Below, piece after piece: positions 3,149 through 32,225 of a stretch of DNA of 64,000 nt (within the stretch, counting starts at the first letter, position 1; each line of letters starts with the position of its first letter). The DNA comes from Porphyra umbilicalis. Taxonomy: Eukaryota > Rhodophyta > Bangiophyceae > Bangiales > Bangiaceae. The position numbers and the translations under genes were made by a program. The stretch lies in assembly GCA_002049455.2 (NCBI GenBank), contig KV919066.1, forward strand, positions 29,593-93,592, in the 5' to 3' direction. The notes under the pieces were generated by a model. It searched no databases. It was not told where the DNA came from and saw only the letters and a program-made list of their open reading frames with translations.

Positions 3149-3183
3149 CTCCTCCTTGCTTGTTGCCGCGACAGTTCTTGTTT

Positions 3184-7110: not shown

Positions 7111-7259
7111 GATGTCTTCTTGTCGTAGTGCCCGACCTTGCCGAGCCGTGCGCCTTGACCGTCACGTCCTTGAACCAACTTGACCTCGACTTTTTCGCAC
7201 TTGCGGCGACCGCCGCGACACCAGCTGGCACACCTTGCTCTTGTCACAGCCCCGGCTCT

Positions 7260-7271
7260 GGGCCCATTACC
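7260..7271 (-). other. Primer-binding site of copia copy 1 (initiator tRNA-Met anticodon arm)
   Basis: Directly inside the 5' LTR the minus strand reads GGTAATGGGCCC. It differs by one base from GGTTATGGGCCC, the complement of the conserved GGGCCCATAACC in the anticodon stem-loop of eukaryotic initiator tRNA-Met. A site complementary to the middle of the tRNA rather than its 3' end implies priming by a tRNA half. Confidence 0.75.
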
Positions 7272-10542: not shown

Positions 10543-11714
10543 TCAAGGCAGACGGACGAGGCCACCGCTCTGTCTGGCGTAGGCGGATGTTCGCGAGTGG
10601 CTTATACTTTCATGCTGCAGCATGAATGGTAGACAAGTAAGAAGATTGTGCCGTGCTTGCTTCTCAGACGGAGTCGCTGAGTCGGACGAAGTCGATGTGT
10701 AGGAAAAAAAAAACCCGGCGAAGGGGAACCTAGTACCACAGGCAGCGACCTCCTCTTCGTCGCCCGATTCGCCAGCGGCCGCATTATGCGGCCGCGGCGT
10801 CATGAAACGGCTTGGACCCGACAGGGTGATCCTGGCCGCCGTGAAGCGGGCCTGCTTGGTCTGAAACGCGTCACATCCTCGCCCCTCCCTCTGCTTGACC
10901 GAGCCGACACCGGCCGAGGCCGCAGCGCGGCGGGCAACGGCCGCGCTTGCGGCTGCGGCTGGTGATGCGCCGGCACGCGGCGACGCGTCGACGCCGCCAC
11001 TCGAAGGAGATAAAGACGGAGGCAATGCGGCCGCACTCGCGGCAGCGCCAGGCGCATGGGACCCGACAGTGCGGTCTGCGGCCGGCGCCAACTCGGCCAC
11101 TTCGCCGCCGTTCACAGCCACGCCGCCGGGAGTAGCGGGCGTTCCACCAAACCCGGGAGACATGGCCGCGCCGCCACTTGGAGAAACTGCAGATGCTGAC
11201 CATGCGGCCACACTTGGATCCTTACCTGCGGCCGCACCCGCCGCCGCCTCAGCGGCCGCGGTAGCGGCCGCAGAGGTGCCCGACACAGAAGGCGCCGTTG
11301 TTGTCGAGCGGGAAGCGACCCGTGCCTCTGCGGACTTGGCTTTGCGAAGGCTGGCGTTGAAAAGCAGAAGCCGCAGCTCCCTCTCGTTCTTGCGCCACTG
11401 CTCCTTCTCACCCGTCTCACGCACGTCCTTGGCCTTCCAAAAGTCGATGTCGGCGCGCTCGATGGCCGTCTCAGACAAGAACTTGACGGCAGCCGCCGTC
11501 GTGGCGGCCTCCCTTTAGATAGCAATGTCAGTCGAGGCCGCCGCTTTGGCCGCCTGCGTACCGATAGGCCGCTCTTGACAGAGGCCGCGCCGCCTGCCGA
11601 CCGTGGAGCTCGAGTGGTCGTTTGAAATGTCCTCGACGGCCTCGTCTGGCAGAGGACGGCAGCCGTGGGCGGCGGCTGCCGTGGCGGCCGTCCCCCACGC
11701 GCCTCTGAACTTGT
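10543..11714 (-). pseudogene. C-terminal half of the Harbinger Myb-like partner gene
   Basis: The minus strand reads from the edge of the LTR at 11714 through FRGAWGTAATAAA, then a TAA near 11515, then AIERADIDFWKAKDVRETGE and the coil KNERELRLLLFNASLRKAK. It ends in a low-complexity tail. This acidic/basic coil after a long Ala/Ser linker is typical of the second protein of plant and algal Harbinger elements, which helps the transposase enter the nucleus and bind DNA. The missing N-terminal half is at 22051-23290 on the other strand. The two halves fit in frame once one copy of a 5-bp target duplication is removed. Confidence 0.75.
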
Positions 11715-12132
11715 TGTTGAACTGCAGTGGAAATAGGGGTTGGGGAACCACGGTGAAGTGGTTGCGTGGCTTGAGCTTGTGTGTGTGTGTGCGAACGTGC
11801 TTTGTTGGTTGTCCTAAGGTTCGCCCGCCTCTCCCAACCGAGAGCACCTCTCAAATAGTCCCAACCGGCCCAAGTGCTCCCCCCTCTCGCGCCCACACCG
11901 ACGCCCACGCCCTCGCACCAAATCGAATCACTCACCAAATCAAAAGCCACTAGAGCAAAGCGAAGATCAAATCCAAAACACGCCAAAAGTAACGCCACTA
12001 GATGACCCAACACGAATGTGTGCAACTTGACCACGTCTTGCAAATGTACCATGTGGGGTACCATAAGGGTCACCGACCAACATCCATCCGCGATCCGCCA
12101 GTGGAGCCGGCGACGAGCATCACAGTCCAACA
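11715..12132 (-). repeat. LTR-A, 3' LTR of copia copy 2
   Basis: The 418-bp repeat starts TGTTGAACTG and ends GTCCAACA on the plus strand. The left flank is CTTGT (11710-11714). It matches nothing at the other end of copy 2. Its complement ACAAG differs at one base from ACGAG in front of copy 3. Confidence 0.93.
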
Positions 12133-12167
12133 CTCCCACTTGCTCATTGCCGCGGTGGTTGTCATTT

Positions 12168-15100
12168 TCAGCAAAGCCTCATGGCCCCGACATGCTTGTC
12201 GTGCTTGGTCTTGCCGAGCTCCTTCGTCATTGGGTCCGCCACCATGTCGTCCGTTGCACAATGCTCCAGTGTCACCTTGACCGTCGTGATGGCCTCGCGC
12301 ACGAAGTGGTAGCGAATGCCGATGTGCTTTGTGCGCTTCTGCTCGATGGGGAAGCGTCCTTAATCTTGTAGATCGCCGCCAGGCTTGATGCCACCAAAAG
12401 AAGATCGTCGACGTACAGCAGGACGATGATGATTTCGCCGTCATCAAGAAAGCGGTAGAGACATGCATCCGGGTCAATGTTGTCAAACCCCTGCGACTTG
12501 AATAAGTTGTCAAGATTGGCATACCACATCTTGGGGGCTTGCTTCAGCCCATACAGCGCTTGGAGGAGACGACACACTTTGTCAGGATACGTCGGATTGA
12601 CATAGCTGTCTGGCTGCTTCATGTTGACCTCCTCGTCAAGGTCTCCGTTGAGGAATGCCGTCTTGACGTCCATCTGATGAAGCTCCCACCCGTTCGCCGC
12701 CGTCATCGCCAGGATGCATCGAGCGGTGGTGAACTTGGCCACCGGCGCGAACGTCTCGTTGAAGTCGAGCCCCGTGATCTGCCGGTTCCCCATGAAGCAC
12801 AGGCGCGCCTTGTGCCGCGTCGTGTTGCTCCTGTTCTTGTCAACCTCGTTCTTGACCGTGTGAACCCACTTGCCCTTCAGCACGCGTCGACTGGCCGGCC
12901 GATCCGTCAAGCGCCGAGTCTTGTTCTTGCGGATGGCTTCCATCTCCTCGTCCATGGAAATCTTCCACTTAGCCGATTCTTGCCCTTGAACGGCTTGCAC
13001 GTACGTCGTGGGCGCCTCGTGAGCAACCAGGCTCACCGGTCGCCAGTACTCGACAGGGGGTCGCCGCGCTCTGCCGCTCCGACGAAGCGTGTCTTGAGAG
13101 CCGCCACTACCTTGATTGTCGTCCGCGGACTTGTCAGATCCATCGTTTTGCTTGTCGTCCTTGTCGTCATTGTCAGCATCTACGTCTTCGCCGTCGCTTG
13201 CAGAACGCAAGCCCGTCTGGACTTCGACAACTTCGTCTCCGGGAAGCTCCTCTGCAACTTCTGCAGTCTCGCTTACATTGGTCTCGGCGAACACAACGCT
13301 TCGTGCCTTGCCAACCTTGCCGTCGTCAACAATGGCTGTGTATGCCTTGCTGCCGTCAAGATAGCCTAAGACGACGCCCTTCGCCGCCTGGTCGCCAAGC
13401 ATGCCGTCGATGTGATTCTTGTGCAGCAAGACCGAGCATGTCAACCCAAGCACCCGCATGTGGCTTACGTTGGGCTTATTCCCGGTCCACAGCTCAAAAG
13501 GCGTCTTGCCAACGGATAGTGCCCGGTTCGTGAAGCGGTTCTTGATGTACACCACCGTCTTGATGGCATCCGCCCAAAGATCCTGATCGACGTCCTTGTG
13601 TCGCATCATGGGGCGAGCCATCTCCACGAGGACTCGGTTGAGCCGCTCAGCAACTCCGTTCTGCTGCGGCGTGTCGGGCACCGTGGTCTGGTGCGTCGTG
13701 CCGTTCTCATCGTGGAGAGCCTTGAATGCTCAAAAGGCGTCTTGCCGACGGATAGTGCCCGGTTTGTGAAGCGGTTCTTGATGTACACCACTGTCTTGAT
13801 GGCATCCGCCCAAAGATCCTGATCGACGTCCTTGTGTCGCATCATGGGGCGAGCCATCTCCACGAGGACTCGGTTGAGCCGCTCAGCAACTCCGTTATGC
13901 TGCGGCGTTTCGGGCACCGTGGTCTGGTGCGTCGTGCTGTTCTCATCGTGGAGAGCCTTGAATGCGCTCGACACGTACTAGCCGCCATTGTCGGAGCGAA
14001 GGATCTTGATCTTGGTTCCCGTGTGCAGCTGGACCTTAGTCAGCCACCTCTTGTACTCAGAGAGCAGATCGGTCTTTTTCTGCAGGAAGACCACGTCGGT
14101 CCAGCGGGAGAAGTCGTCGGTGAAGGTGCCGAAGTAGAGCGCACCGCCACGCGACGGCTGCGACATTGGCCCGCCCAGGTCCGAGTGCACGAGCTGCAGG
14201 CGCTTGGTCACTCGACCTCCTCCTGCACTCGGCATTGGCGTCATAGCCGCCTTCCCGTACACGCACGGCTCGCAGACGTCCGTGACAACCATGGAAGAGG
14301 ACTTAAGTCCGTCAATGTCCTTGTTCTTGATCATCCGCTCAACGCCAGACACGTTGACGTGCCCAAGGCGCTCATGCCATAGCTGCAGGGAGGCCACCGC
14401 AGAAACATCCGACAAAGGGGCCATGTCCAGGTGGTAAAGCCCGTTTTTACGCCTGCCGAACGCAGCAATCTTCTCGTTCATCTTGATGATCGTCTTACCG
14501 CCCTTGAATGACACTTCCGCCCCACGTTCCTCCATCATGCCGACCGACATGAGGTTGACGCGCATTGTAGAAACATGAAGTACCTCCTTCAATTTGATCT
14601 TGAGCGTCCTGCCCTGAACGATGACGTTGAGGACGGCCGTTTCGACACCCGCCGTGGTCACGGACCCCTTTCCAAACATGGTAAAGCTGCGTCCCGTGGT
14701 CGTCTGGTAACCATCGAAGCTCGCGTGCACGCAGCACATGTATGAAGACGCCACAGAATCGACGAGCCACGACTTGGAGATGTCATCGGTGTCAGCTGCA
14801 TTGCCCACCAGACAGATGGCCTCGTCGCTATCGCTAGCGTCGTAAGCAGCCATCGCGGCCACCATGTGCGTTTCTTGCTCCTGGGCTTTAGAACTGGGCA
14901 ATCGTCAGAGTTGTGTCCCAACGTTTGGCAGTAGTAACACTCGATCTCAGAGAGGTCACCACGGCGACCTTGACCTCGATAGTTGGCGCCGACAAGTACC
15001 ATGTCGCCAATGCGCTTCGTCGCCGGTGACGTTTCCGCCGGCCGCCGCTCCTCCTGAAGCAAGCGGCTCTTGACAAAGTCAAGGCTCAGCTTGTTCTCTC

Positions 15101-15617
15101 CCTTGACGTCGAGAGCCACCAGCAGGTTCTCGTACTTGGACGTCAGCCCGTTGAGGACTCTCATGGCAACGTCCATCTCCGTCACCTCGCCGCCCATGGC
15201 CTAGAGGTTCTCGCCGAGGTTGCGCACGCGGTTGATGTAGCCATGCATGCCCTCGCCGACGGTCATTTCGACGGTGTAGAACTCGGGTCGCGCCTTCATC
15301 TTGTTCATCAAACTCTTGCGCTGGAAGACACCTTGCAGCGTCGACCACATTTCCGCCGTCGTCTTGCAGCCCGACACGTGCTCGAGCTGCTCAGACCCAA
15401 GGGTGAGCCCGATGATAGCGCTCGCCTTCGTGTCTCGACGCTTCCACAACGCCAACTCGCGGTCTTCCGCGTCCGTCGGCTTGCCGTCTTCGTCAAGCAT
15501 ATCGTCCAGGTCGCGCAGCACGAGGACCATCTTAATGCGCTGACGCCACTCGTGGAAGTTCGTCTCCGTCAACTTTTCGATCGTGATGCCGCCCATGCCG
15601 GCAGCGCCTCCGTCCAT
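12168..15617 (-). pseudogene. Copia copy 2 gag-pol relic
   Basis: The reading starts at the ATG at 15615-15617 and ends at the TGA at 12168-12170. Defects: TAG after GENL in gag; a one-base loss at the gag-protease border that puts protease and later domains in another frame; TAG directly after the integrase DNGG motif (13978-13980); a 236-bp tandem duplication in the integrase (about 13494-13965); and a deletion of about 713 bp removing the end of reverse transcriptase and nearly all RNase H. The reverse-transcriptase YVDD is present. All these defects are shared with copy 3, so they predate the split of the two copies. Confidence 0.9.
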
Positions 15618-15778
15618 GATGTCCTCTTGTCGTAGCGCCCGACCTTTCCGAGCCGTGCACATTGACCGTCACGTCCTTGAACCAACTTGACCTCGACTTT
15701 TTCGCACTTGCGGCGACCGCCGCGACACCAGCTGGCACACCTTGCTCTTGTCACAGCTCCGGCTCTGGGCTCATAACC

Positions 15779-15864
15779 TGTTGGGATTCGAAAGTTGTAC
15801 CACTCAGCTACAGCCACAATACCAGTGTGAATGGACCTGAGGAGTTCAAACCTATAATCCAACA
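15779..15864 (-). repeat. LTR-B (86 bp), 5' LTR of the chimeric element
   Basis: On the plus strand it runs from TGTTGGGATTCG to ATAATCCAACA. It closely matches 27928-28013 (also 86 bp) and the two 86-bp ends of the TRIM at 31889-32225. It abuts the copia primer-binding site. It is followed by TTGAC (15865-15869), the complement of GTCAA found after 28013. Confidence 0.88.
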
Positions 15865-16446
15865 TTGACGAGAAGGTCTACATGGAGCAGCCAGATGGCT
15901 ATATCAATTTGATGTGTACTGAAAAGATGTCTTTTCTGCTTTAAGCGCTGTATGGTCTGAAAGAAGCCAACAAGATGTGCTTCACCCAGCGGGACGACTT
16001 CCGGGCGTCGCAGGGGTTCGATCACATCGACCCGGATGCATGTTTTTACCTCCTCATGGATGACGGCAAAATAATCATCGACCTCGTGTACGTCGACGAT
16101 TTTCTTTTATTGGCATCAAGCCTGTCGGCGATCTACATGATTAAGGACGCTCTGCACAGGCGTTTTGAGATGAAGGACCGGGGCGAGTCGAAGGTCATCC
16201 TCGGGCTAGAGATTAGGTGTCACAAGGCGTTGGGCACCCTCAAGCTGTCACAGGGCAAGAACGCGACGCAAGTGCTGAGGACGTTCGATATGGCGGAGTG
16301 CAACCCCATCGGAACACCACGAGGCGTTCACTACGGAAAAGGTGACACTGGAGAATTGTTCAACAGACAACATGGATGCGGACCAAATTTCGGAGGAGGT
16401 AGGCAAGAAAAAGCAACATAAGCATGTCGAGACGATGGGACTTTGC
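15865..16446 (+). pseudogene. 3' part of copia copy 4: reverse transcriptase to C-terminus
   Basis: The frame opens at the LTR-B edge as DEKVYMEQPDGY. It continues with ALYGLKEANKM, DPDACFYLLMDDGKII, LVYVDDFLLLASS and ILGLEIRCHKALGTLKLS. A TAA lies at 15942-15944. Most of RNase H is deleted after the NPIGTP block, and the end of the polyprotein (KHVETMGLC) follows. The preceding part of the same reverse transcriptase ends at 28014 on the minus strand, and the two join in frame through the shared GTCAA duplication. No LTR-A follows the GLC end, so the original 3' LTR is lost or diverged. Confidence 0.88.
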
Positions 16447-17655
16447 TGTGTGAAGTCGACGATGTTGAGTGGGTCCGTTGATTCTTTAGGCACGGCGTTC
16501 CCAGGCATGCGAAGACGCACATGATAGCCGCCAGGCCACCTCAGCCGCAGCGTCCTCCCAGGCAGCCCCTCTGGCGCGGCCGAAGAGACCCGCACGGCGT
16601 CTTCCAGGGCAGCTGCCGCACTTTCGATGGGTGACCATAGCCTTCCACTCAAGGCGCAACTTCCCACACAAATCTCCCCTGGAGCTCAACCCCTGATGGG
16701 TTCCCCGCTAAAATCGTGCAAACATGTACATGCAGTGTCACAAAACACATGCAGCGACTGACGACCTTCGCAAGGGCCGGTTGTCACTGGGGATTGTAAA
16801 AGTACACTTCACACTCCCCCCCAGTTCTGCGGGGATCATTGCAGCCACCCCGTCGAATACCAGTCAGCAGAAGTCCGTGCAAGGCTCTCCGGGGACGATC
16901 CAACCAAAAGGTCTCAAGCCCTGTAGGCCGCCTTCATGCAGAGCGGTCTGAATCCCTTCAGCCCCATGTCCAGAATTCAGATTTTGAACCAACCTCCGAT
17001 GGGGACAAATCAGACCCGGGAGGATGCCAGAGGCACGTCCGGGCCTGTCTGGCTCACGTACGACCCCATCCGGTACATCGGAGAACACACCCACAGTGAT
17101 CGTTCTGGCCTCGAGGCTGAAGCCCGTGAGAAGCCTTCCAAATCTCAGTTTTTCAACCGTCTTCGGAAGGGGCCCAGGAGGGTCCGGGCAGGTGCTCCGG
17201 TGACGCCCGACCCGTCCAGGTGCCCGTTCGACCACATCTATTCCGTCGAGCCCTACCGAAGGAAAGCCTAGAGTTATTTCGCCCCATGACCACGTGTTGC
17301 AGTGACCTCACGTGTTGCAACGACGCCGCGTGTTGCAACGTCGCCACGTCTTGCTCCCGGAACAATCTTCCATGCCACGACATTCGGGCCCGAAATCTTG
17401 AAATCGGCGCCCGGGCCCGCCCAGCCGGATGCAATCACGCCCGTTAGCGCCCCATAGCCGGGCACTTTGACGACGCGCCTTAGCACGCCGGGTCCGGCAG
17501 GGATGCAAGCGTTGCGGGCGACGGCGCAATGCGCGGAGTCGCCCGTAGCCCACTCAGCCCTCCAATCACAAGCGCGCGCCTTGCACTACAGTCTCGCCAA
17601 CTGTGCAAAGCCGGAGATGTACATTTTTATAGCCAAGCGGGCCGCTGGCGTTTTG
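16447..17655. other. Unassigned stretch
   Basis: Open frames are present but no domain is recognised. TGTTGAGTGGG near 16463 resembles an LTR start, but no matching end was found. It contains the small tandem repeat at 17290-17355. Confidence 0.35.
17290..17355. repeat. 18-bp tandem repeat, about 3.5 units
   Basis: The word CACGTGTTGCA recurs every 18 bp with point changes (cgcgtgttgcaacgtcgc and relatives). Confidence 0.7.
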
Positions 17656-18270
17656 TCAACTAGGAGAATAAACTCGCCCAGGCGCTGCGTGGTTTGCGCT
17701 TTGCGCTTGACGTTGAATTTGGGAAGGACCGCTTTTTTCCGTCGCCGTGTTCACAGTACACGACTCTTTGGCGCAAGCCCAAACGACCAGGTACTTGTCG
17801 AAAACCACGCTCGACCGCCAGGGCGCGTCCTTGGCAGCTTGCCGCAGCCACCACGGCAACCAGAGCCGCAACCGCCGCGCGCACGTCCCTCCCGCAACGG
17901 CCGCGTTCCTCCCAAAAAGGGCACAATGTAGCCGCGTTAGGAGTTTGATGGACGCGTCGAGCATGCCGCGGAGCAGGTCCTCGGCGTGAGACGTCGGGAT
18001 CTGGCTCGCCGGTTTGTTGTGCATCGCCGAGGCTAGGTGCTGGCAACGCTGCCGCTTCTTAAGCCTGCCGCCGACGTGCTTTTTCTGCAGCTTTCGAACT
18101 TCACGCCGCGTAGAGCCTGACGCTCTCTCCAAGGCAAAGCTTTGAGAGCTGTCTGAGTTGCCCGAGTAGTCAAATTCGCCGTCATCGATGCTTTTTCGGC
18201 TGTCGACAGGCCCAGCAGGACACAGCGCCACCTGCAGCAGAGATTGGCGCGTCACCCTCCGGCGAAACAC
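17656..18270 (-). CDS. Unrecognised ORF with a basic segment
   Basis: This is a 204-codon frame. Its middle is rich in basic residues (STRREVRKLQKKHVGGRLKK), preceded by an acidic/serine stretch (DDGEFDYSGNSDSSQS). That composition suggests a nuclear or nucleic-acid-binding protein, but no family is recognised and the C-terminal part looks like random GC-rich coding. It may be a transposon relic. Confidence 0.25.
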   Translation of the reverse strand: MFRRRVTRQSLLQVALCPAGPVDSRKSIDDGEFDYSGNSDSSQSFALERASGSTRREVRKLQKKHVGGRLKKRQRCQHLASAMHNKPASQIPTSHAEDLLRGMLDASIKLLTRLHCALFGRNAAVAGGTCARRLRLWLPWWLRQAAKDAPWRSSVVFDKYLVVWACAKESCTVNTATEKSGPSQIQRQAQSANHAAPGRVYSPS

Positions 18271-18722
18271 TGCCGCTAAAAGCTACACCACCTCGCCCCA
18301 CAACCACTTCACCAACCCCCATCACAACGCCGCTGCCCTTGGTCGCTCCGACAGATCCAGCCTCAGCGGCCAAACATTCAGCATGCTGAATGTCGTCGTC
18401 GGCCTTGAACACCACTGCAGCAGCACCTTGAGCCCGGGCAAGGTCTTTTAACTTGGATTGAAGTGCAGTGACGCCTTTGCCGTGACGTTGTCAGTGGGCG
18501 CGCCGCCAGCTGCACACGTGATGCCGCCTGCTGCGGCTCCGCGGCTGCCGCTTGCGACCCGAGTGGAAACATTTTATGTCCTCCTTTTCTCTCCCGCAGT
18601 GTGCCACTTACGCGTCCTCTGACCTCTGCCCCTTCCCTGCGCGCCCCTCCGCAAACCGTCACTTCGCCACCGGTCCCTCCGCTGGCCGCCGATTCGCCAG
18701 GAGGCGCGACTAGTTCGTCGTC

Positions 18723-18989
18723 CTAGGTGGTCAGAGGATGGAAAAAGTCGAATGAGATGCGTGCGGTTTCGGCGGACGCAGGTTTGAGCGCTAGGCGGAA
18801 GCCAGAAGCCGCCATCATGCCGCCCGCGCTCTCAAGGTACCGATACGGCATGCACAGCATTTGCGTGCCGGGAGCGCTCTCCAACACGTTAGGGTCCTCA
18901 AGCATCGGCAGCCAAATGATCTGATTCGTGATGTCGTAGCCAGACACGTGCTCGTAAAAGTTGAAATCGATTTTCGCAAGCGTGTGCAT
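18723..18989 (-). CDS. Unrecognised small ORF (88 aa)
   Basis: The ATG is at 18987-18989 and the product starts MHTLAKIDFNFYEHVSGYD. Composition is balanced and protein-like (WLPMLEDPNV, MLCMPYRYLESAGG), unlike the surrounding low-complexity frames. The frame is open further upstream but turns proline-rich, so an intron or an unrelated upstream region is possible. No function can be assigned. Confidence 0.3.
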   Translation of the reverse strand: MHTLAKIDFNFYEHVSGYDITNQIIWLPMLEDPNVLESAPGTQMLCMPYRYLESAGGMMAASGFRLALKPASAETARISFDFFHPLTT

Positions 18990-19211
18990 CCGGGCCGACG
19001 GGCGGGATTCGCCGACACCAGCAACGGCAGAGAGTGTGTTCGGCAACCGCACTGGGAGCAGCGGCGACGAGAAGGGCAGGCCAAGAGCGGGGCACCCCGG
19101 GGGCCTGTGTGGGACCGGCCGAAGCGTTAGCAGCACAGGGCACGCAATTGCAAGCTGGGGGGAGAGAAAACTTCTCGCGCGATTTATGATCTGAGGCACA
19201 GCGGCATTCAC

Positions 19212-20620
19212 GTGCCACAGAAGCGTCTGTTAGAGCATACCGAGAAACGTCGGTTGCGAACGGTCTGCGAACCGTTGAAGAGCGCAACGTGTGCGCCTAA
19301 GAGTGGCCAAAAGAGTTTCGGCAGCGATATGCGCAGGCTCTGCGAACCCGCTCCGCTCGGATCGAGAGAACTTGTTGTCTTCTGTCGGCAGATCGCAGTT
19401 ATCGGGAAACGGAGAAGGCGACGTTGCTGGGTTGTCGACCTGCAAACTGGAGCCTGTGAGCAGCTTTCCCGTGAGATGTCCACATTCCAACAGTCCCGTG
19501 CTACATTTCAAGCAAACAGGCCATCCATCGACCTTGCGATCAAGCTGATGTGGACCCCAATTGTCAGCAAATCAGACGGTCAAGAGAGACACGCAGCGCG
19601 ATAGTCTCCAAATGGCTGCAAATTCTTTCGATCGAGTTGACACGACGAGGTCAAATGCATAAATGTTGGAGACACGTTGGCAGTATCTCGCATCATCTCG
19701 CGGCGCTGTCGCATCTCGCGACTTACAGCAGGGAATTGTAGGTCTCCCGTTGGTCCGGTCAGCTGGCAGACGTACTGCGTACGTGCAATCTGGTGGCGCT
19801 TCCGCCTCGGTCGGCACTGGAGCATTCTATTCTGCAGCGCCTGTGAGGCGGCCGCTTGGTGTCTGCCGGTCACCGCGACGCAGAGCGGGCTCCTACGTGG
19901 TCGCCTGCGGAGGTCGAGCGACCCGGCCGGCAAGTCTGCCGAGACGCGGCAGGGTCCACTTACGATCGCGTCCCTTGCGGAGCAGCCCCATCGTGCGACC
20001 CCCTCCGATTTCTGTGTCAGCGATCCGCATGCTCATTGGTCAGACGCACTCTCGCTGTGCTCTTCCCCGGTCACACCCTCGATTGGCCGTCCACAGTGAA
20101 CGCCCGACCGGGCGCCACATGTGGCTCAGAGAGCTCTGCGGCGTTTGAGCGACGCCCGCGAGCCCGGCAGGCCACGCGTAGAGCGCAGCGCCACGCTTGG
20201 CGTGACCTGCTGGGCCCCTGAGCTTGGCAGGCAAGAAAGGCGGCCGCCCGATTCCCCCCGAGCGAAAGGACGATCGAGGGCGGCCTCCTGTTTTTAGGGC
20301 GTACGGCGGGGTCGTGCCACCTGCGAGACCGTCGAGAATGGCCGGGGCGAAGCCTTGCGGGCCCCTTTGCGATCGTCTTCGCAGTGGCAGAGTGGAGGCG
20401 CCGCGCATCGTCTTGAACTAACGCTTGAGCTTGGAGCAGACTCTATTTGTTGACCATCTGTGGGCGTAGTTCCAGCGCCGGGGGCAACCGCCTTTGGGCT
20501 GTGACCCGTTCGGCGCCGAGAGAGTAGCCGTGTGCATCCGCATGTGTGCGTACCGCCGCAATCGTCGCCAGCGGCCGCCGTTGCAGCGCGGGAAAGGAGA
20601 CGTCGTGCGCGCGTGCTTTG
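19212..20620. other. Unassigned stretch
   Basis: Frames on both strands are open but unremarkable. No conserved motif, TSD or terminal repeat was found. Confidence 0.35.
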
Positions 20621-20624
20621 TTGC

Positions 20625-20647
20625 GGCCGCCATCTTCGATGGCGGCC
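20625..20647. repeat. Perfect inverted repeat, 10-bp arms, 3-nt loop
   Basis: The arms GGCCGCCATC and GATGGCGGCC enclose TTC. It lies in DNA full of GCGGCCGC words. Confidence 0.7.
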
Positions 20648-21177
20648 ACGTTGCATCACTGGAGGAAGGACGTGCGAGTCGGCGCGCTTTTTCGCGGCCG
20701 CCGCTGTCGTTGGCGGCCGCGGCGGCACTGTGTGTGCGTGCGCGCTGCTCTTGGCGGCCGTCTTTCTTTGTGCCCGCCGCTGGTACACGACCGTTCTTGA
20801 ACGAGGGTGCAGCGGGAGGCCTGGTGCCTCACCTTTTTGGCGGCCGCTCTGTGCAGAAGCGGCCGCCTTTCGCTCGCTGCCCACGAGGCGTCGTACTGTG
20901 CAAGGACCGGCCGTTGCGGCAGCATGGTTCTTCATGCGCCGCGTCGAATATCCAAAATGGAGCGCCGGCGCGGTCTGCGGCAGTTCTGCCGTATGTGCCG
21001 ACGCACGCTGGGCGTCGGTGACGATCATCCCCTGTGCGCCCCATCCTGCCCATGTCCGTGGGCGGCGCGCACTCGTTTCATATAAGAGGCTTAACCATGA
21101 GCAGCTGGGGCCGACGCGCCACCACCACCAGCTGTACACCCTCCTTGCCTCGGTCCACTGCCGTCCCGTCCGCCGAG

Positions 21178-21566
21178 CCCGCATCTTCAAGACACGCGTA
21201 TCTCCGCGTTGCGGCCGCCGCCGACGCGGCCTACCAGCCCATCCCGTCAAGGCCCGAGTCCCCCGGACAGGCGGCCGGGACCGTGCCTGCCGCCAAGCCC
21301 GACCGGCCGAGGTCCGCGTTGTTCCGACTGGCAGCCGCCGCCGCAGCTGCCGCCGAGCCCGCTTCGTCAGGGCCTGCGTCTCCCCGATTGGCGGCCGCCG
21401 CCGCGGCGGCCGCCGACCCCGCCCCGTCAAGGCCTGCGTCCCTCCGATTGGCGGCCGGGACCGTGTCGGACACTAAACCCGCCCCATCAAGGCCCACACT
21501 CTTCCGACTGACGGCCACCGCCGCAGCAGCCGCCAAGCCCGCTTCGTCCAGGCTTGCGTCCCCCTG
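21178..21566. repeat. 60-bp minisatellite, about 6.5 units
   Basis: In the forward frame each unit gives 20 residues of the pattern PASSRPASPRLAAAAAAAAD. Unit lengths are constant and substitutions fall throughout. It lies upstream of the Myb-like N-terminal fragment at 22051. Confidence 0.85.
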
Positions 21567-22050
21567 ATTGGCGGCCGGCACCCGCGCGGCTGCCGCGCCC
21601 AACTCGCGCGTACCAGCTGTCGCGAGGATAGCAATCACCGGCGAGCCCACCTCGAGCAAGCGCGCGCCGCACCAAAGTCCGCCCGTCATCATCGGATCCG
21701 GGGAGCCTTATTCGGTAAGGCGCATCTGGGTCCGCCTGGCGCCCGCCTCCGACGCGGCCGCCAAGCCCACTCGGTCGAGGTCCACCGTCTGCTACCAGGC
21801 GGCCGTCGCCCCAGCGGCGGCCGAGTCCCCCGAGCCCACCGCGTCCAGGACCATCTGCACCGACGTGGCCACCTGTCGAAACATCCAGTCCGCCAGGTCT
21901 CTTGGAGCAAGTGCGGCCACAAACTCCACCTGTGGCCGCGGGGGAACTGCGGGAGCTCCAGGAGCTTGCCCACAGAGCGCACAACATGGACCGGACGGCG
22001 CGATGGCTGCTGCTGGAGGGCAGTCCTGACTCCCTGGAGGAGAGCAATTG

Positions 22051-23290
22051 ATGGGAGGCGCGGCAGAACAGGCGGCAGCAGATGAGGCATGGTCACCTGC
22101 CGCCTCCTCGGCCGCGCCCGGCGGGGCCGCCGATCGGGCGGCCCCCGATGCCGCCGCCACGGCCGCAGACCCACGCGCTGACGGAGATTTCGGGGCCCCT
22201 CCAAGCCGCAGCGTCGTGGAACGAGGATACAACCTCATTGCGGGGCGGTCATCAAGGCTGGGGCGAGGCCGCAGAGGTGCACTCGGCGGACCAATCGGCG
22301 CCGGCGGACGCGGTGAAAGCGGCGTCGGAGATGCCACCCTTGACTCCGATGCCAAGCTTGCAGTCAGCGACCGCGGGGCGGGCAGGCGCGGAGCACTCGG
22401 AGGGCGCTGCCCTATCGGCGGCCGCGGTGCAGTGGTTGCAGAGGTGCGCGAGGCTGAACTGTCTGTCGCCGCGGCCACTTCCGGTATCCCGGCCTCTGAC
22501 GCTGCACGAGGCGATGGCGGCGACGCAGAGTCCCGCAGCGCCGCGTTGCCCAGCCGATCAGGTTACGGAGCGGCCGCCTCAGCGGCCACTCACGGGAGTG
22601 GATCTGGCGACACAGCCGGAGCCGCGGCCGCCGACGGCGGCTGCGGCGGCGGAACCGGAGTCGACGATGAAGGGCGTGCACCACCCGCCAAATTCGGCGG
22701 GGTTGGGCATGGAGAGGGTGCAGCGGCCGCCGGTGGAGGCGGGGACGGTGGCGGGCCCCCTTCCTCCTCAGCCACCGCTGCCACTGCCGACGCCGTCGCT
22801 GCTGGCGACAGCGAGTCTTCTACCGGCAGGGACAGAGGAGGCTGCCGCGGATGGACCGAGGCAGAGCGAGAAGCTCTCTGCAAGGCCTTATTGGCGGTGG
22901 CGCAAGACCCGGTGGACGGTACCGACCTGAGCCGAGCAACCTTTGCCGCTGAAATCGTCAACGGGTACGAGTCCCATTGCCCGATGGGCCCTGGACGCAG
23001 GGCGTGCACGGACACCGCCATCGACCGCGAACTGCGTTATTCAGGTTTCAAGCACTTTCAACACTTTTCAACCCCGATGGTGGCCGTCGGGCGTCGCCAG
23101 ATGACGGGCAATTTGACCGAAAAGGATTTGATACGCATGGCCACCGCGCACTTTGACGCCGAGAACCTGTATGAGTCCGTGCAGGTGCATGACAACGACA
23201 AAGGACGCGCTGATGTTGGTGGTGAAGGAGAGCGGCACGGGAGCAGCCGATTGGGTCAAGCGTTGGACGCTCATGCGCAAGTGAAACGAG
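22051..23290 (+). pseudogene. N-terminal half of the Harbinger Myb-like partner gene
   Basis: The frame begins at the ATG at 22051 after an Ala-rich region. The diagnostic part is WTEAEREALCKALLAVAQD, a Myb/SANT-like helix-turn-helix start, followed by FKHFQHFSTPMVAVGRRQ, LTEKDLIRMATAHFD and YESVQVHDNDK. This resembles the helix-turn-helix protein of Harbinger elements that works with the DDE transposase. After a small frameshift near 23235 the true frame reads ADWVKRWTLMRK, then TGA, then the LTR of copy 3. The C-terminal half is at 10543-11714. Confidence 0.75.
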
Positions 23291-23708
23291 TGTTGGACTG
23301 TGACGCTCGTCGCCGACTCCTCTGGCGGTTCGCGGATGGATGATGGTCGGTGACCCTTATGGTACCCCACATGGTACATTTGCAAGACGTGGTCAAGTTG
23401 CACACATTCGTGTTGGGTCATCTAGTGGCGTTACTTTTGGCGTGTTTTGGATTTGATCTTCGCTTTGCTCTAGTGGCTTTTGATTTGGTGAGTGATTCGA
23501 TTTGATGCGAGGGCGTGGGCGTCGGTGTGGGCGCGAGAGGGGGGAGCACTTGGGCGGGTGGGGACTATTTGAGAGGTTCTCTCGGTTGGGAGAGGCGGGC
23601 GAACCTGAGGACAACCAACAAAGCACGTTCGCACACACACACACAAGCTCAAGCCACTCAACAACTTCACCGGGGTTCCCTAAACCCTATCCCCACTGCG
23701 TTTCAACA
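23291..23708 (+). repeat. LTR-A, 5' LTR of copia copy 3
   Basis: The 418-bp repeat starts TGTTGGACTGTGACGC and ends TTTCAACA. It is preceded by ACGAG (23286-23290) and followed by a mutated primer-binding site (TGTTACGGTCCCAGAGCC). Confidence 0.93.
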
Positions 23709-23869
23709 TGTTACGGTCCCAGAGCCGGGGCTGTGACAAGAGCAAGGTGTGCCAGCTGGTGTCGTGGCGGTCGCGGCAAGTGCGAAAAAGTCGAGGTCAA
23801 GGTGGTTCAAGGACGTGACGGTCAATGTGCACGGCTCGGAAAGGTCGGGCGCTACGACAAGAGGACATC

Positions 23870-26800
23870 ATGGACGGAGGCGCTGCCGGCATGGGCGGCA
23901 TCACGATCGAAAAGTTGACGGAGACGAACTTCCACGAGTGGCGTCAGCGCATTAAGATGGTCCTCGTGCTGCGCGACCTGGACGATATGCTTGACGAAGA
24001 CGGCAAGCCGACGGACGCGGAAGACCGCGAGTTGGCGTTGTGGAAGCGTCGAGACACGAAGGCGAGCGCCATCATCGGGCTCACCCTTGGGTCTGAGCAG
24101 CTCGAGCACGTGTCGGGCTGCAAGACGACGGCGGAAATGTGGTCGACGCTGCAGGGTGTCTTCCAGCGCAAGAGTTTGAGGAACAAGATGAAGGCGCGAC
24201 CCGAGTTCTACACCGTCGAAATGACCGTCGGCGAGGGCATGCATGGCTACATCAACCGCGTGCGCAACCTCGGCGAGAACCTCTAGGCCATGGGCGGCGA
24301 GGTGACGGAGATGGACGTTGCCATGAGAGTCCTCAACGGGCTGACGTCCAAGTACGAGAACCTGCTGGTGGCTCTCGACGTCAAGAGTGCGGACGATCTG
24401 AGCCTCGACTTTGTCGACAGCCGCCGGCTGCAGGAGGGGCGGCGGCAGGCGGACAAGTCACCGGCGACCAAGCGCATTGGCGACATGGTACTTGTCGGCG
24501 CCAACTATCGAGGAAAAGGTCGCCGTGGTGACCTCTCTAAGATCGAGTGTTACTACTGCCAAACGTTGGGACACAACTCTGACGATTGCCCAGTTCTAAA
24601 GCCCAGGAGCAAGAAACGCACATGGTGGCCGCGATGGCTGCTTACGACGCTAGCGATAGCGACGAGGCCATCTGTCTGGTGGGCAATGCAGCTGACACCG
24701 ATGACATCTCCAAGTCGTGGCTCGTCGATTCTGTGGCGTCTTCATACATGTGCTGCGTGCACGCGAGCTTCGATGGTTACCAGACGACCACGGGACGCAG
24801 CTTTACCATGTTTGGAAAGGGGTCCGTGACCACGGCGGGTGTCGAAACGGCCGTCCTCAACGTCATCGTTCAGGGCAGGACGCTCAAGATCAAATTGAAG
24901 GAGGTACTTCATGTTTCTACAATGCGCGTCAACCTCATGTCGGTCGGCATGATGGAGGAACGTGGGGCGGAAGTGTCATTCAAGGGCGGTAAGACGATCA
25001 TCAAGATGAACGAGAAGATTGCTGCGTTCGGCAGGCGTAAAAACGGGCTTTACCACCTGGACATGGCCCCTTTGTCGGATGTTTCTGCGGTGGCCTCCCT
25101 GCAGCTATGGCATGAGCGCCTTGGGCACGTCAACGTGTCTGGCGTTGAGCGGATGATCAAGAACAAGGACATTGACGGACTCAAGTCCTCTTCCATGGTT
25201 GTCACGGACGTCTGCGAGCCGTGCGTGTACGGGAAGGCGGCTATGACGCCAATGCCGAGTGCAGGAGGAGGTCGAGTGACCAAGCGCCTGCAGCTCGTGC
25301 ACTCGGACCTGGGCGGGCCAATGTCGCAGCCGTCGCGTGGCGGTGCGCTCTACTTCGGCACCTTCACCGACGACTTCTCCCGCTGGACCGACGTGGTCTT
25401 CCTGCAGAAAAAGACCGATCTGCTCTCTGAGTACAAGAGGTGGCTGACTAAGGTCCAGCTGCACACGGGAACCAAGATCAAGATCCTTCGCTCCGACAAT
25501 GGCGGCTAGTACGTGTCGAGCGCATTCAAGGCTCTCCACGATGAGAACAGCACGACGCACCAGACCACGGTGCCCGAAACGCCGCAGCATAACGGAGTTG
25601 CTGAGCGGCTCAACCGAGTCCTCGTGGAGATGGCTCGCCCCATGATGCGACACAAGGACGTCGATCAGGATCTTTGGGCGGATGCCATCAAGACAGTGGT
25701 GTACATCAAGAACCGCTTCACAAACCGGGCACTATCCGTCGGCAAGACGCCTTTTGAGCATTCAAGGCTCTCCACGATGAGAACGGCACGACGCACCAGA
25801 CCACGGTGCCCGACACGCCGCAGCAGAACGGAGTTGCTGAGCGGCTCAACCGAGTCCTCGTGGAGATGGCTCGCCCCATGATGCGACACAAGGACGTCGA
25901 TCAGGATCTTTGGGCGGATGCCATCAAGACGGTGGTGTACATGAAGAACCGCTTCACGAACCGGGCACTATCCGTTGGCAAGACGCCTTTTGAGCTGTGG
26001 ACCGGGAATAAGCCCAACGTAAGCCACATGCGGGAGCTTGGGTTGACATGCTGGGTCTTGCTGCACAAGAGTCACATCGACGGCATGTTTGGCGACAAGG
26101 CGGCGAAGGGCGTCGTCTTAGGCTATCTTGACGGCAGCAAGGCATACACAGCCATTGTTGACGACGGCAAGGTTGGCAAGGCACGAAGCGTTGTGTTCGC
26201 CGAGACCAATGTAAGCGAGACTGCAGAAGTTGCAGAGGAGCTTCCCGGAGACGAAGTTGTCGAAGTCGAGACGGGCTTGCGTTCTGCAAGCGACGGCGAA
26301 GACGTAGATGCTGACAATGACGACAAGGACGACAAGCAAAACGATGGATCGGAAAAGTCCGCGGACGACAATCAAGGTTGTGACGGCTCTCAAGACACGC
26401 TTCGTCGGAGCGGCAGAGCGCGGCGACCCCCTGTCGAGTACTGGCGCCCGGTGAGCCTGGTTGCTCACGAGGCGCCCACAACGTACGTACAAGCCGTTCA
26501 AGGGCAAGAATCGGCTAAGTGGAAGATTTCCATGGACGAGGAGATGGAAGCCATCCGCAAGAACAAGACTCGGCGCTTGACGGATCGGCCGGCCAGTCGA
26601 CGCGTGCTGAAGGGCAAGTGGGTTCACACGGTCAAGAACGAGGTTGACAAGAACAGGAGCAACACGACGCGGCACAAGGCGCGCCTGTGCTTCATGGGGA
26701 ACCGGCAGATCACGGGGCTCGACTTCAACGAGACGTTCGCGCCGGTGGCCAAGTTCACCACCGCTCGATGCATCCTGGCGATGACGGCGGCGAACGGGTG

Positions 26801-27319
26801 GGAGCTTCATCAGATGGACGTCAAGACGGCATTCCTCAACGGAGACCTTGACGAGGAGGTCAACATGAAGCAGCCAGACAGCTATGTCAATCCGACGTAT
26901 CCTGACAAAGTGTGTCGTCTCCTCCAAGCGCTGTATGGGCTGAAGCAAGCCCCCAAGATGTGGTATGCCAATCTTGACAACTTATTCAAGTCGCAGGGGT
27001 TTGACAACATTGACCCGGATGCATGTCTCTACCGCTTTCTTGATGACGGCGAAATCATCATCGTCCTGGTGTACGTCGACGATCTTCTTTTGGTGGCATC
27101 AAGCCTGGCGGCGATCTACAAGATTAAGGACGCTTCCCCATCGAGCAGAAGCGCACAAAGCACATCGGCATTCGCTACCACTTCGTGCGCGAGGCCATCA
27201 CGACGGTCAAGGTGACACTGGAGCATTGTGCAACGGACGACATGGTGGCGGACCCAATGACGAAGGAGCTCGGCAAGACCAAGCACGACAAGCATGTCGG
27301 GGCCATGAGGCTTTGCTGA
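23870..27319 (+). pseudogene. Copia copy 3 gag-pol relic
   Basis: Gag starts at the ATG at 23870 and meets TAG at 24284-24286, with ATG four bases after the stop codon. The zinc knuckle is CYYCQTLGHNSDDC. The frame is lost by one base before protease, which is read from about 24586 (SWLVDSVASS). Integrase has its zinc region and the first catalytic Asp, then TAG at 25507-25509. A 236-bp duplication (units from 25522 and from 25758) follows. Reverse transcriptase is intact to YVDD (VLVYVDDLLLVASS), then a deletion at about 27134 joins it to the last part of RNase H. The gag segment near 24390 reads KSADDLSLDFVDSRR, like copy 4. Copy 2 there reads like copy 1, so the copies are mosaics. Confidence 0.9.
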
Positions 27320-27354
27320 AAATGACAACCACCGCGGCAATGAGCAAGTGGGAG

Positions 27355-27771
27355 TGTTGGACTGTGATGCTCGTCGCCGGCTCCACTGGCGGATCGCGGA
27401 TGGATGATGGTTGGTGACCCTTACGGTACCGCAGATGGTACATTTGCAAGACGTGGTCGAGTTGCACACATTTGTGTTGGGTCATCTAGTGGCGTTACTT
27501 TCGGCGTGTTTTGGAACTGATCTTCGCTTTGCTCTAGTGGCTTTTGATTTGGTGAGTGATTCAAATTGGTGCGAGGACGTGGGCGTCGCTGTGGGCGCCG
27601 AAACGGAAAACACTTGGGCCGGTGGGGACTATGTGAGAGGTGCTCTCGGTTGGGAGAGACGGGGAACCTCAGGACAACCAACAAAGCCCGTTCGCACACA
27701 CACACACAAGCATAAGCCACTCAACGACTTCACCGTTGTCCCCCAACCCCTATCCATACTGCGTTTCAACA
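27355..27771 (+). repeat. LTR-A, 3' LTR of copia copy 3
   Basis: The 417-bp repeat has TGTTGGAC and TTTCAACA ends. The polypurine tract AAGTGGGAG precedes it. Confidence 0.93.
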
Positions 27772-28013
27772 GGTTATGGGCCAAAGAAATTCCAGCTGAA
27801 GCTTGTTGACTTTGCCGGAGGTCGCAGGTTCAAATCCCACCTGAGGGCGACTTGAAATCGCCGGAGTCTGAGGATTGGCTTCGTGAGTGAGACCTGGCGG
27901 CTTGAGTTCCTTTGAAGTTAGGACGAGTGTTGGCATTTATGTTTGAACTCCTCAGGACCATTCACACCGGTATTGTGGCTGTAGCTGAGTGGTACAATTC
28001 TCGAATCCCATCA
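27772..28013 (+). mobile_element. TRIM body plus 3' LTR-B, joined directly to a copia LTR
   Basis: The primer-binding site GGTTATGGGCC starts at 27772. A 156-bp internal segment and a purine-rich end (TTAGGACGAG) follow, then LTR-B at 27928-28013 (86 bp). It matches the complete TRIM at 31889-32225. The flank after it is GTCAA (28014-28018), identical to the complement of TTGAC at 15865-15869. The expected 5' LTR-B is missing here and is found at 15779-15864, beyond the inversion. Confidence 0.85.
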
Positions 28014-31000
28014 GTCAAGGGCGCCGCTTACGGAGGCTGACTTGACGTCCATATGATGTAGTCCCTATCCGTTCCCCGCTGTCAGCGCCAGCAAGGAACG
28101 GATGGTAGTGAACTGGGCCACAGGCGTGAACGTCTTGCTGAAATCGCGCCCCCCCCTATGCTGGTGACCAATGAATGAAGGGTGCGCCTTGTGCCGCGGC
28201 GTGTTGCTCCCGTTTTTTTCCACCTCGTTCTTGACCGTGATGTCCCATTTGCCTTTGAGCCCGCGTCCAATGGACCCGAGCGATATGTTAAGCCCCAATT
28301 CTTGTTCTTGCGGATGGCATTCATCTCCTCGTCCATCACAACCTGCCTTTCAGCTGCTCTTCGCCCTTGTACTACTTTCAAATACGCCATTGGCTCCTGG
28401 TGAGCCGCCAGGCTCTTCCGGCGCCAGTACGCGAATGTTGGTCGCCACGCTCTGCCGCTCCGACGCAGCCTGTCTTGAGAGTGGGCACAACCCTGATATT
28501 CGTTTATCGACTTGTCGAATATATTGTCTTGCTTTTCATCCTTGTCAAAGTTGTCAGTATCTACGGCTTTGCGGTCGCTTGCAGAACGCAAACCCGTCTC
28601 GTCTCAAACAACCATGTCACCGGGCAACTCCACTAAATCATCTGCGACGTCGCTTACTTGCGTCTCGCCGAGCACGATTCTTCGTGGCTTGAAGATCTTG
28701 CCGCCTTATACGCCTTGCTGCCGTCGAGAGAACCTGAAAAGACGCCCTTTGCCGCCTTGTCTCCATACGTGCCGTCGTTGTGACTATTGTGCATCACCGC
28801 CCAGCATGTCGACCTTAACACCCACATGTGGCTTACTTTGGGCTTGTTCTCGGTCGAAAGCTCAAAAGGCTTCGTGCTTCCGGGAATCGCTCGGCTGGCA
28901 ACGCGATTCTTGATGTAGACCGCCTTCTTGATGACATCCGCCGAGAGATCCATATCGACGTCCTTGTCTCGCATCATGCTTCGAGCCATCTCCTTTAGGT
29001 CTGGGCTGAGTAGTTTCGCAACTCCGATCTGCTGTGGCGTGTCGGGCACCGTCGTCTAGTGCGACGTGCCGTTCTCATCGTGAACAGGCTTGAAAGCGCT
29101 CGAAACGCATTCGCCGCCATTTTCTGAGCGCAGGACCTTGATCTTGCCTGCAGTGGGCAGCTGGGCCTTGATCAGCCACTTGTTGTATTGCTGGTTGCCC
29201 TTTTTTGTCCTGGGGGACTGGGACTGGGACTGGGACTGACTGTATTCCACCAATCAGGTGACCCCCTGGGACCGACTCTGTCCTTTTCACAGCACCGATG
29301 TGCTCATACGCATTGGAAATGCACAACGGCATCTCAGCAGTTTTTCATATCTCTAGGGCAAACAGTGAGAATTCTCCGGATCACGGCACGATCTGGACTC
29401 GGAGCGGCAATGATCCCCTTGCAGGGTAGGAAAACAGTGACTTCTCGTCTGTGCAAGGCCCTCGTCACGAACCCGCACGTTTTATTGGCTGAAGTCGCGT
29501 CTGACAGCGCTTCTCAGCCAAATGTAGGCCCTTATTCGCAGTCAGTCCCAGTCTTAGTCCATTAGGAAAGAATTGGGCAAGAAGCAATGCTCCGCAACAG
29601 TATCGCTCTTCTTCTGTAAAAATATCACGTCCTTGCAGCGGGAGAAGTCGTCTGTTGAGATGCCGAAATAGAGCGAACCACCACGCGACGGCTCTGACAG
29701 TGGCCCGCCCAGGTCCGAGTGCACGAGCTCCGAGCGCTTGGTCACTCGACCTCCTCCTGCACTAGTCATAGGCGTCATAGCTGCCTTTCCATACACGGAC
29801 GGCTCGCAGACGTCCTTTTACGCCGTAAAAGAGCACTCGAGTCTGTCAATGTCCTTGTTCTTGATCATCCGCTCAACGCCAGACACGTTGACGTGCCCAA
29901 GGCGCTCATGCCATAGCTGCAGGGAGGCCACCGCAGAAACATCCGACAAAGGGGCCATGTCCAGGTGGTAAAGCCCGTTTTTACGCCTGCCGAACGCAGC
30001 AATCTTCTCGTTCATCTTGATGATCGTCTTACCGCCCTTGAATGACACTTCCGCCCCACGTTCCTCCATCATGCCGACCGACATGAGGTTGACGCGCATT
30101 GTAGAAGCATGAAGTACCTCCTTCAATTTGATCTTGCGCGTCCTGCCCTGAACGATGACGTTGAGGACGGCCGCTTCGACGCCCGCCGTGGTCACGGACC
30201 CCTTTCCCAACATGGTAAAGCTGCGACCCGTGGTCGTCTGGTAACCATCGAAGCTCGCGTGCACGCAGCACATGTATGAAGACGCCACAGAATCGACGAG
30301 CCACGACTTGGAGATGTCATCACTGTCAGCCGCATTGCCCAGCAGACAGATGGCGTCGTCGCTATCGCTAGCGTCGTAAGCAGCCATCGCGGCCACCATG
30401 TGCGTTTCTTGTTCCTGGGCTTTAGAACTGGGCAATCGTCAGAGTTGTGTCCGAACGTTTGGCAGTAGTAACACTCGATCCTAGAGAGGTCACCACGGCG
30501 ACCTTGTCCTCGATAGTTGGCGCCGACGAGTGCCATGTCGCCAATGCGCTTGGTCGCCGGTGACTTGTCCGCCTGCCGCCGCCCCTCCTGCAGCCGGCGG
30601 CTGTCGACAAAGTCGAGGCTCAGATCGTCCGCACTCTTGGCGTCGAGAGCCACCAGCAGGTTCTCGTACTTTGACGTCAGCCCGTTGAGAACGCTCAAGG
30701 CAACGTTCATTACCTTCAATTCGCCACTCATGGCCTTGAGGTTCTCACCTAGGTTGCAGACGCGGTTGATGCAGCCCAGCATGCCCTCGCGGACGTTTTT
30801 CTTGACGGTGTAGATCGTGCGTGGCGCTTTCATCTGGTTCATTAACCTTTCGCGCTGGTAATCACCCAGATGTGTCGTCCACATTTCCGCCGTCGTCTTG
30901 CAGCCCGACGCGTGCTCGAGCTGCTCAGACTCAAGAGTGAGCCCGATGATGGCTCTCGCGTTCGTATCTGGCACCTTCCACACAGCGAAGTTATGGTCTT

Positions 31001-31308
31001 TGTCGTTCTTCGGCTTGCCGTCTTCATCAAGCACTTCGTCCAGGTCGTGCAGCGTGAGGACCATCTGTATGCACTGACGCCTTTCGTGAATGTTCGTTTC
31101 CGTCAACGTGTCGATCGTGATGCCGCCCATGCAGGAGCGCCACTGTCCATGATGCCTGCTTGTCGGAGCGTCCTAGCGTGCCGTACCTGGCGACGTGACT
31201 GTCACGGCCTGGAACCAACCTGTGCTTTACATGCCCGCACTTGCCACGACCGCCGTGACACCATACATCACACCTTGCCATGGTCACAGCCCCGGCTCTG
31301 CGTTAATA
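28014..31308 (-). pseudogene. 5' part of copia copy 4: gag, protease, integrase, start of reverse transcriptase
   Basis: This is the oldest and most degraded copy. Gag is open from about 31130 without the TAG found in the other copies (GENLKAM), and its zinc knuckle CYYCQTFGHNSDDC is intact. It shares the one-base gag-protease frameshift of copies 2 and 3. Protease (SWLVDSVASS), integrase and a Ser/Asp-rich linker follow with several frameshifts. A MITE at 29215-29560 interrupts the integrase. The reverse transcriptase stops at HMDVKSAS next to the GTCAA junction, and its continuation lies at 15865-16446. Confidence 0.85.
29215..29560. mobile_element. MITE inserted in copia copy 4 integrase
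   Basis: The left end GGACTGGGACTGGGACTGACTG (29221-29242) and the complement of the right end (29539-29560) agree at 20 of 22 positions. One extra GGACTG unit lies outside on the left. The 340-bp body has no coding capacity and interrupts an integrase frame that other copies show as continuous. No clear TSD was found. Confidence 0.75.
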
Positions 31309-31728
31309 ACCTCCTGAAGCGCAGTGGGCATAAGGTATGGGGGACCATGGTGAAGTCGTTGAGAAGCTTGAGCGTGTGTGTGCTTGTGCGAACGTGCTTT
31401 GTTGGTTGTCGTAAGATTAACCCACTTCTCCCAGCCGAGAGCACCTTTCAAATAGATCCAATCGGGCCAAGTGCCCCGCCCTCCCGCGCCCACACTGGCG
31501 TTCACGTCCTCGCACCGAACCAAATCACTAACCAAATCAAAAGCCACTAAAGCAATGCAAAATTTAAATCTAAACATGCCAACAAAAAAGCCTCAAGATG
31601 TCCCAACACGAATGCGTGCAACTTGACCACGTCTTGCAAATGTTCCATCTGGGGTACCATAGGGGTCACCAAGCATCATCCGTCCGCGACCCGCAAGTCG
31701 AATCGGCGATGAGCATTACAGTCGAAGG
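31309..31728 (-). repeat. Degenerate LTR-A, 5' LTR of copia copy 4
   Basis: It aligns with LTR-A over its whole length but with many substitutions, and its terminal TGTTG/CAACA is lost. It is inserted in gypsy coding sequence: the adjoining minus-strand frame ends KKLPHVP at the LTR edge. Confidence 0.85.
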
Positions 31729-31888: not shown

Positions 31889-32225
31889 TGTTGAAATGCG
31901 GAAAGTGTACCTGTCAGCAACAGCCACAATACCTTTGCGAATGATCTTGGGGACTTCAACCGTATAGTCCAACACTCCACCTAACTTCTTCGGACCTCAA
32001 GCAGACAGGTATCTTCTCAGCAGCCAATCCCCAGACCCCTGCGACTGATTTATGTTCAAGTCGCCCACACGTGAGAATTGAACCTGCGACCCCGTGCAAA
32101 GTCAATCAGCTCTAACTGGAAGATTCTGGGCCCATAACCTGTTGAGATTCGAAAAATGTTCCAAGCAGCTACGGCCACAATACAGGTGTAAATGGTTCTG
32201 GGGATTTCAAACTTACAGTTTAGCA
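31889..32225 (-). mobile_element. Complete TRIM (miniature LTR element, 337 bp)
   Basis: Two 86-bp LTR-B repeats (31889-31974 and 32140-32225) enclose 165 bp. The primer-binding site GGTTATGGGCCC is perfect (plus-strand 32128-32139) and the purine tract lies at the other end. The interior resembles a tRNA: AGAGC, then CTTTGCACG, then GGTCGCAGGTTCAATTC (B-box-like). There is no coding capacity, so it must have been mobilised by another element, most simply the copia family that shares its primer-binding site. The flanks GTTTC and TAGTC do not form a clear TSD. Confidence 0.83.

Follow-up and report, generated by a model that had tools for sequence, protein, structure and literature searches.

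An inversion between inverted copia copies in the red alga Porphyra umbilicalis, probably formed by ectopic recombination with gene conversion

Inversion 2z3 of Drosophila buzzatii, as presented in the consulted part of PMC2775673, was attributed to ectopic recombination between copies of the transposon Galileo on the grounds of their opposite orientation, exchanged target duplications and chimeric structure. For long terminal repeat (LTR) retrotransposons, extracts of two further papers describe tandem arrangements: tandem LTR elements with an outer target duplication are common in plants (PMC11899658), and recombination or template switching has been proposed for arrays of Cassandra, a terminal-repeat retrotransposon in miniature (TRIM; PMC7215508). 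Recombination, complex insertion and template switching together make up the proposed origins of such arrays in these extracts (PMC11899658, PMC7215508). Here we describe a 64,000-nucleotide stretch of the Porphyra umbilicalis genome (contig KV919066.1, positions 29,593 to 93,592, assembly GCA_002049455.2; hereafter the window), in which two copia elements, copies 2 and 3, bound a segment whose non-element part spans 15865-23290. As in the described part of the Galileo case, two opposite copies carry exchanged target duplications and are chimeric, the chimerism here being at the level of the ends (PMC2775673). The segment was very probably inverted by ectopic homologous recombination between the inverted internal regions of the two copies, with gene conversion. 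Recombination between inverted copia copies had been the original prediction; it is supported by the flank swap, by uninterrupted versions of both target sites, and by copies that are inverted, near-identical and chimeric at their ends.

The internal regions of copy 2 (INT2, 12133-15778, minus strand) and copy 3 (INT3, 23709-27354, plus strand) are each exactly 3,646 bp long, as predicted, and alignment gives 98.7% identity with 47 differences. Homologous copies in opposite orientation thus lie at both breakpoints. The predicted 5-bp flanks were read directly from the letters. Left of copy 2, positions 11710-11714 read CTTGT (complement ACAAG), and left of copy 3, positions 23286-23290 read ACGAG, equal to ACAAG in 4/5 letters; right of copy 2, positions 15865-15869 read TTGAC (complement GTCAA), which equals the GTCAA right of copy 3 at 28014-28018 in 5/5 letters. 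As now ordered, neither copy has a matching 5-bp pair. Paired across copies, the left flanks (11710-11714, minus strand; 23286-23290, plus strand) would be the target duplication of one original element, X, and the right flanks (15865-15869, minus strand; 28014-28018, plus strand) that of another, Y. By simple arithmetic, a 5/5 match together with a second of 4/5 or better would arise by chance at about 1/1024 x 16/1024, a figure to be read with the ends having been picked after looking.

Both target sites were found uninterrupted in the same genome (83.8 Mb in 665 contigs). The flanks at the site of X (22500-23290 and the reverse complement of 11714-10700) were searched separately, with 40 candidates scored for each, and both match one dispersed repeat, R1. 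In 37 of 38 matches reaching the junction the second flank adjoins the first on the same strand, and the 5-bp overlap is present in all 37: in four (on contigs C80, C48, C114 and C189) the alignment runs to the final base, and in the other 33 the overlap was obtained by extrapolating 4 to 9 bases. The 38th, on C152, has no partner among the matches listed. One protein, P0002 (575 amino acids), covers both flanks, with residues 45-385 at 22183-23199 and residues 414-554 at 11715-11293. The first part of R1 occupies 19230-23290 on the plus strand and the second part continues at 11714-10730 on the minus strand. The site of Y lies in an older copia, c4. Aligned to eight copia internal regions, the right flank of copy 2 has its first base at internal position 2905 (2884 in locus L048) and that of copy 3 its last at 2909 (2888 in L048). 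The 5-bp overlap is exact in five of the eight (L036, L038, L039, L048, L052); in L034 and L037 the second alignment is one base short, and in copy 1, a further copia of the window (2731-7688), the first alignment starts two bases late. The 3' part of c4, apparently separated off by the insertion of Y and then moved with the inverted segment, lies at 15865-16448 (plus strand), and the 5' part of its internal region at 28014-31314 (minus strand), with an LTR-like end at 31315-31726. A diverged TRIM copy adjoins c4 at 31903-32215.

Since the R1 and c4 paralogs run uninterrupted, each outer flank pair represents one continuous sequence that was cut by one insertion and then separated, and chance matching of 5-mers can be set aside. 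The exchange of target duplications is thus documented by the letters themselves and by the overlaps in uninterrupted paralogs, and the prediction that the outer flanks pair only across copies is confirmed on both counts. Likewise, the two genes that had been predicted to rejoin across the swap do so: the gene of the R1 repeat, whose halves are spanned by P0002, and the polymerase region of c4.

The anatomy of the copies is more complex than anticipated. Copy 3, on the plus strand, consists of ACGAG, the copia LTR A1 (5' LTR, 23291-23708), INT3, a second copia LTR, A2 (27355-27771), a 155-bp TRIM interior starting with GGTTATGGGCC (27772-27928), LTR B (27928-28013) and GTCAA. Copy 2, on the minus strand and read in reverse, consists of GTCAA, LTR B (15864-15779), INT2 (15778-12133), the copia LTR A3 (3' LTR, 12132-11715) and ACAAG. 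Hence the outer ends at 15864 and 28013 lie in the LTR of a TRIM-like element (LTR B, approximately 86 bp) and not in a copia LTR, a feature that the original prediction had missed. LTR B, the interior, its primer-binding-site-like start and the target duplication together have the form of a TRIM; a count on the alignment gives 9 differences over 86 positions between the two LTR B copies. Both copies therefore have unlike ends, LTR B at one and LTR A at the other, compared with like ends in four elements of the Y type described below and six plain elements. The chimeric structure is evident at the level of these ends, and a mosaic switch inside the internal region is only partly resolved. LTR A3 is 95.5% identical to A1 and 90.6% to A2, and A2 is 89.9% identical to A1; A1 and A3 were assigned to X, A2 and the LTR B of copy 2 to Y. 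With the swap undone, X would be a plain copia (LTR A-INT-LTR A) and Y a composite (LTR B-INT-LTR A-TRIM-LTR B). The prediction that both copies are copia elements consequently holds for the internal regions, which are copia by DNA identity, and fails for the parents, one of which appears to be a copia/TRIM composite.

Copia-type polymerase domains were seen in copy 1, whose open frame of 1,103 amino acids contains RVT_2, rve, gag_pre-integrs, Pol_BBD and an SH3-like domain; INT2 and INT3 are assigned to the Ty1/copia superfamily by DNA identity to copy 1. Copies 2 and 3 both carry a 236-bp tandem duplication (25522-25993 in INT3, plus strand; also in INT2) and, compared with other internal regions, are short of about 713 bp. 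Of 40 scored candidates, copies 2 and 3 alone show the deletion junction in full. Beside copy 1, at 7600-8721, lies an open reading frame (ORF) with Plant_tran and DDE_Tnp_4 transposase domains, and a solo copia LTR A with an intact duplication, ACCTG, was found at 1203-1620.

The architecture deduced for Y exists elsewhere in uninverted form. It is present in L039, L040, L041 and L042, all four with 5-bp target duplications; that of L039 was counted after moving the element end one base outward, and LTR A is recognised over its last third only in L040 and L042. Plain copias have exact duplications in five of six cases, the sixth, L036, matching over 4 bases with a shift. A reverse composite, Z (LTR A-TRIM-LTR B-INT-LTR A), is represented by L044 with a duplication and by L047 without one, and L048 (1502-6106 on contig C102; LTR B-INT-LTR A), with unlike ends and no matching duplication, is a candidate second rearranged copy. 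A tandem TRIM, L050, has CAACA on both sides. Copia/TRIM composites thus recur in both orders (L039-L045, L047, and in the window 27355-28013 and 15779-15864), several with one outer target duplication, and their units are joined at a shared primer-binding-site-like sequence. Nineteen composite or TRIM junctions of other loci were written out; 12 contain the letters GGTTATGGGCCCAGA, one of the 12 (the B-INT junction of L047) having the motif four bases past the end as set, and the remaining seven show it altered. We take this motif to be complementary to the anticodon arm of the initiator tRNA-Met, as in Drosophila copia. Its occurrence in both copia and TRIM is only suggestive of mobilisation in trans by an autonomous element. 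By eye LTR B resembled a tRNA, an idea that was discarded, as ARAGORN reported no gene in the window and Rfam no match in four loci. High divergence of the internal region as a mark of Y-type elements was also dropped, young plain copias likewise differing more in the internal region than in the LTR.

The internal regions carry a record of sequence exchange. Nineteen other internal regions were aligned, and none is more than 92.6% identical to INT2 or INT3. The 47 differences between these two are patchy: the first 100 bp hold 8, INT positions 678-831 hold 20 and 2235-2781 hold 14, with 5 elsewhere. The longest identical run of 760 bp is improbable by permutation (P 0.00055, or 0.034 once the 678-831 cluster is left out). 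At sites diagnostic for c4, INT3 is c4-like at 7/7 in 678-831 and INT2 at 0/7, which accounts for most of the difference cluster. In 832-1400 both copies are c4-like at 55/63 sites, with the same exceptions, and outside the tract c4 matches fall to 2/103, 2/28, 1/11 and 3/178 sites. These sites delimit a c4-derived gene-conversion tract at INT 678-1439 in INT3 (24386-25147, plus strand) and at INT 854-1439 only in INT2 (14340-14925). Left edges differ, lying between 623 and 678 in INT3 and between 722 and 854 in INT2, and the right edge at 1439-1469 is common. Within the tract both copies are about as distant from a mainstream copy as c4 is; the direction of transfer was therefore from c4, or an unseen close relative of it, into the copies. 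Because both copies carry the same tract and are otherwise near-identical, they have exchanged sequence after its formation, unless each was separately converted with the same edge. INT 722-854, where INT2 switches into the tract (24430-24562, plus strand, in copy 3; 14925-15057 in copy 2), would mark either a crossover or a conversion edge. Some rare states common to INT2 and copy 1 (e.g., at 67, 680 and 698) suggest that further conversions are likely besides the c4 tract.

The following history is proposed. Y would have inserted into c4, and X nearby in opposite orientation into an R1 repeat. An ectopic exchange between the internal regions of X and Y, on one chromosome, would have followed: a crossover within their 3.6 kb of inverted homology would have inverted the DNA between them, produced two chimeric elements, exchanged the target duplications and divided each host repeat into two parts. 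The copies would also have undergone gene conversion, with each other and from c4, during the inversion or after it, and their internal regions would thereby have been homogenised; the position of the crossover and its order relative to the conversions are likewise deductions. Judged by divergence only, Y would be oldest (LTR B pair about 10%), followed by X (LTR A pair 4.5%), the c4 tract (about 2.5% from c4 over 801-1400) and the last exchange (about 0.8%, from 27 differences outside the 678-831 cluster). In any case the inversion is younger than X.

Several observations weigh against this history. No second haplotype of the flanks occurs among the matches listed, and the inversion is read from one genome. 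A single switch point, which the original prediction expected from aligning the internal regions at diagnostic sites, was sought and is not visible, conversion having homogenised them patchily; the one clear switch, at INT 722-854, may be a conversion edge and not a crossover. The 236-bp duplication, at one point thought private to copies 2 and 3, is also present on contig C637 (7-882, 98% identical over 881 bp) and so does not by itself show exchange. This third internal region, which ends before the deletion junction and was not among the 40 scored candidates of the other searches, could be an allele or another copy. Copy 1, with no known rearrangement, also lacks an exact duplication (GTGGA versus GGGTA), and an absent duplication by itself therefore proves little. 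The halves of c4 are unequal in their identity to the family (about 81-85% versus 76-78%). Finally, rare LTR states do not favour the pairing of A1 with A3, two sites being shared by A1 and A3, two by A2 and A3, and three by all three; both A2-A3 sites fall within the first 40 LTR columns, over which A2 and A3 are identical, as if exchange ran a short way into the LTR.

The alternatives must account for the same flanks. The assembler might have flipped a segment between inverted repeats on a chromosome that is in truth uninverted; we regard this as unlikely. Its appeal is that the deduced breakpoints lie inside a 3.6-kb inverted repeat of 98.7% identity, where errors of this kind typically arise, and that a third such internal region sits on the short contig C637. 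However, young plain copias whose LTR pairs are 99.5-100% identical were resolved in 6/6 cases, with exact duplications in 5/6, which suggests, from the assembly, that reads were longer than the elements; moreover, exchange between the copies would still be required for the c4 tract found in both. A different origin, in which a tandem copia array (LTR A1-INT3-LTR A2-INT2-LTR A3) stood beside an intact TRIM and broke at the short primer-binding-site homology, would restore the same flanks, yield an ordinary TRIM and explain the shared internal features by tandem duplication, and tandem arrangements do occur (L043, L045, L050). Yet the internal regions are 1.3% apart, against 10% between A2 and A1 and 9% between A2 and A3, and after an ordinary tandem duplication A2 should resemble its neighbours; in addition, the composite demanded by the inversion between X and Y is present in four uninverted copies. 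We consider the array very unlikely, chiefly because of the divergence of A2. That no inversion occurred, two chimeric elements having inserted independently with coincidental flank matches, is scarcely credible: L048, with its unlike ends and missing duplication, indicates that such forms are not unique to the locus, but in paralogs each target site runs as one unbroken sequence, whose two sides meet exactly across the swap.

Elsewhere in the window, a dispersed repeat at 16450-17498 has many matches at about 78%, some of them arrayed approximately 5.5 kb apart on contigs C75 and C476. A prephenate dehydratase gene lies at 54213-55337; among the 120 matches listed, its close relatives are metagenome proteins only, and the named relatives include red algal proteins at about 40-41%. 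A Pfam search of ten window ORFs left eight without a family.

The inversion mechanism itself is textbook knowledge; more unusual are the copia/TRIM composites, a recurrent form that came to light alongside it. Y may belong to a recurrent class of alternating copia and TRIM units, joined at the shared primer-binding site, with like outer LTRs and one 5-bp duplication. We tentatively propose that such composites could form in a virus-like particle by plus-strand transfer to the primer-binding site of a co-packaged element, so that parasite and helper integrate as one heteromer, and that the dispersed products later serve as substrates for inversions and gene conversion. The composites are relevant to recombination between non-autonomous elements and the elements that probably help them, and besides the inversion, local gene conversion between adjacent retrotransposons can be read at this locus. 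In the consulted extracts of PMC11899658 and PMC7215508 we found no counterpart of Y and Z, in which a unit of one family alternates with a TRIM that has a different LTR. The plant tandem LTR elements and Cassandra arrays presented there do resemble the composites in that LTRs and internal regions alternate (PMC11899658, PMC7215508). Galileo, in the part of the report considered, is a DNA transposon with 7-bp duplications (PMC2775673), whereas the elements here are LTR retrotransposons. That part also describes non-inverted chromosomes and a switch located within 141 bp (PMC2775673); in Porphyra, in contrast, the switch is blurred by conversion and the target sites were checked via paralogs. 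Parents, target sites and exchange products are nearly all readable in one genome, and, with both target sites also preserved uninterrupted elsewhere in it as an internal control, the Porphyra event is unusually well documented.

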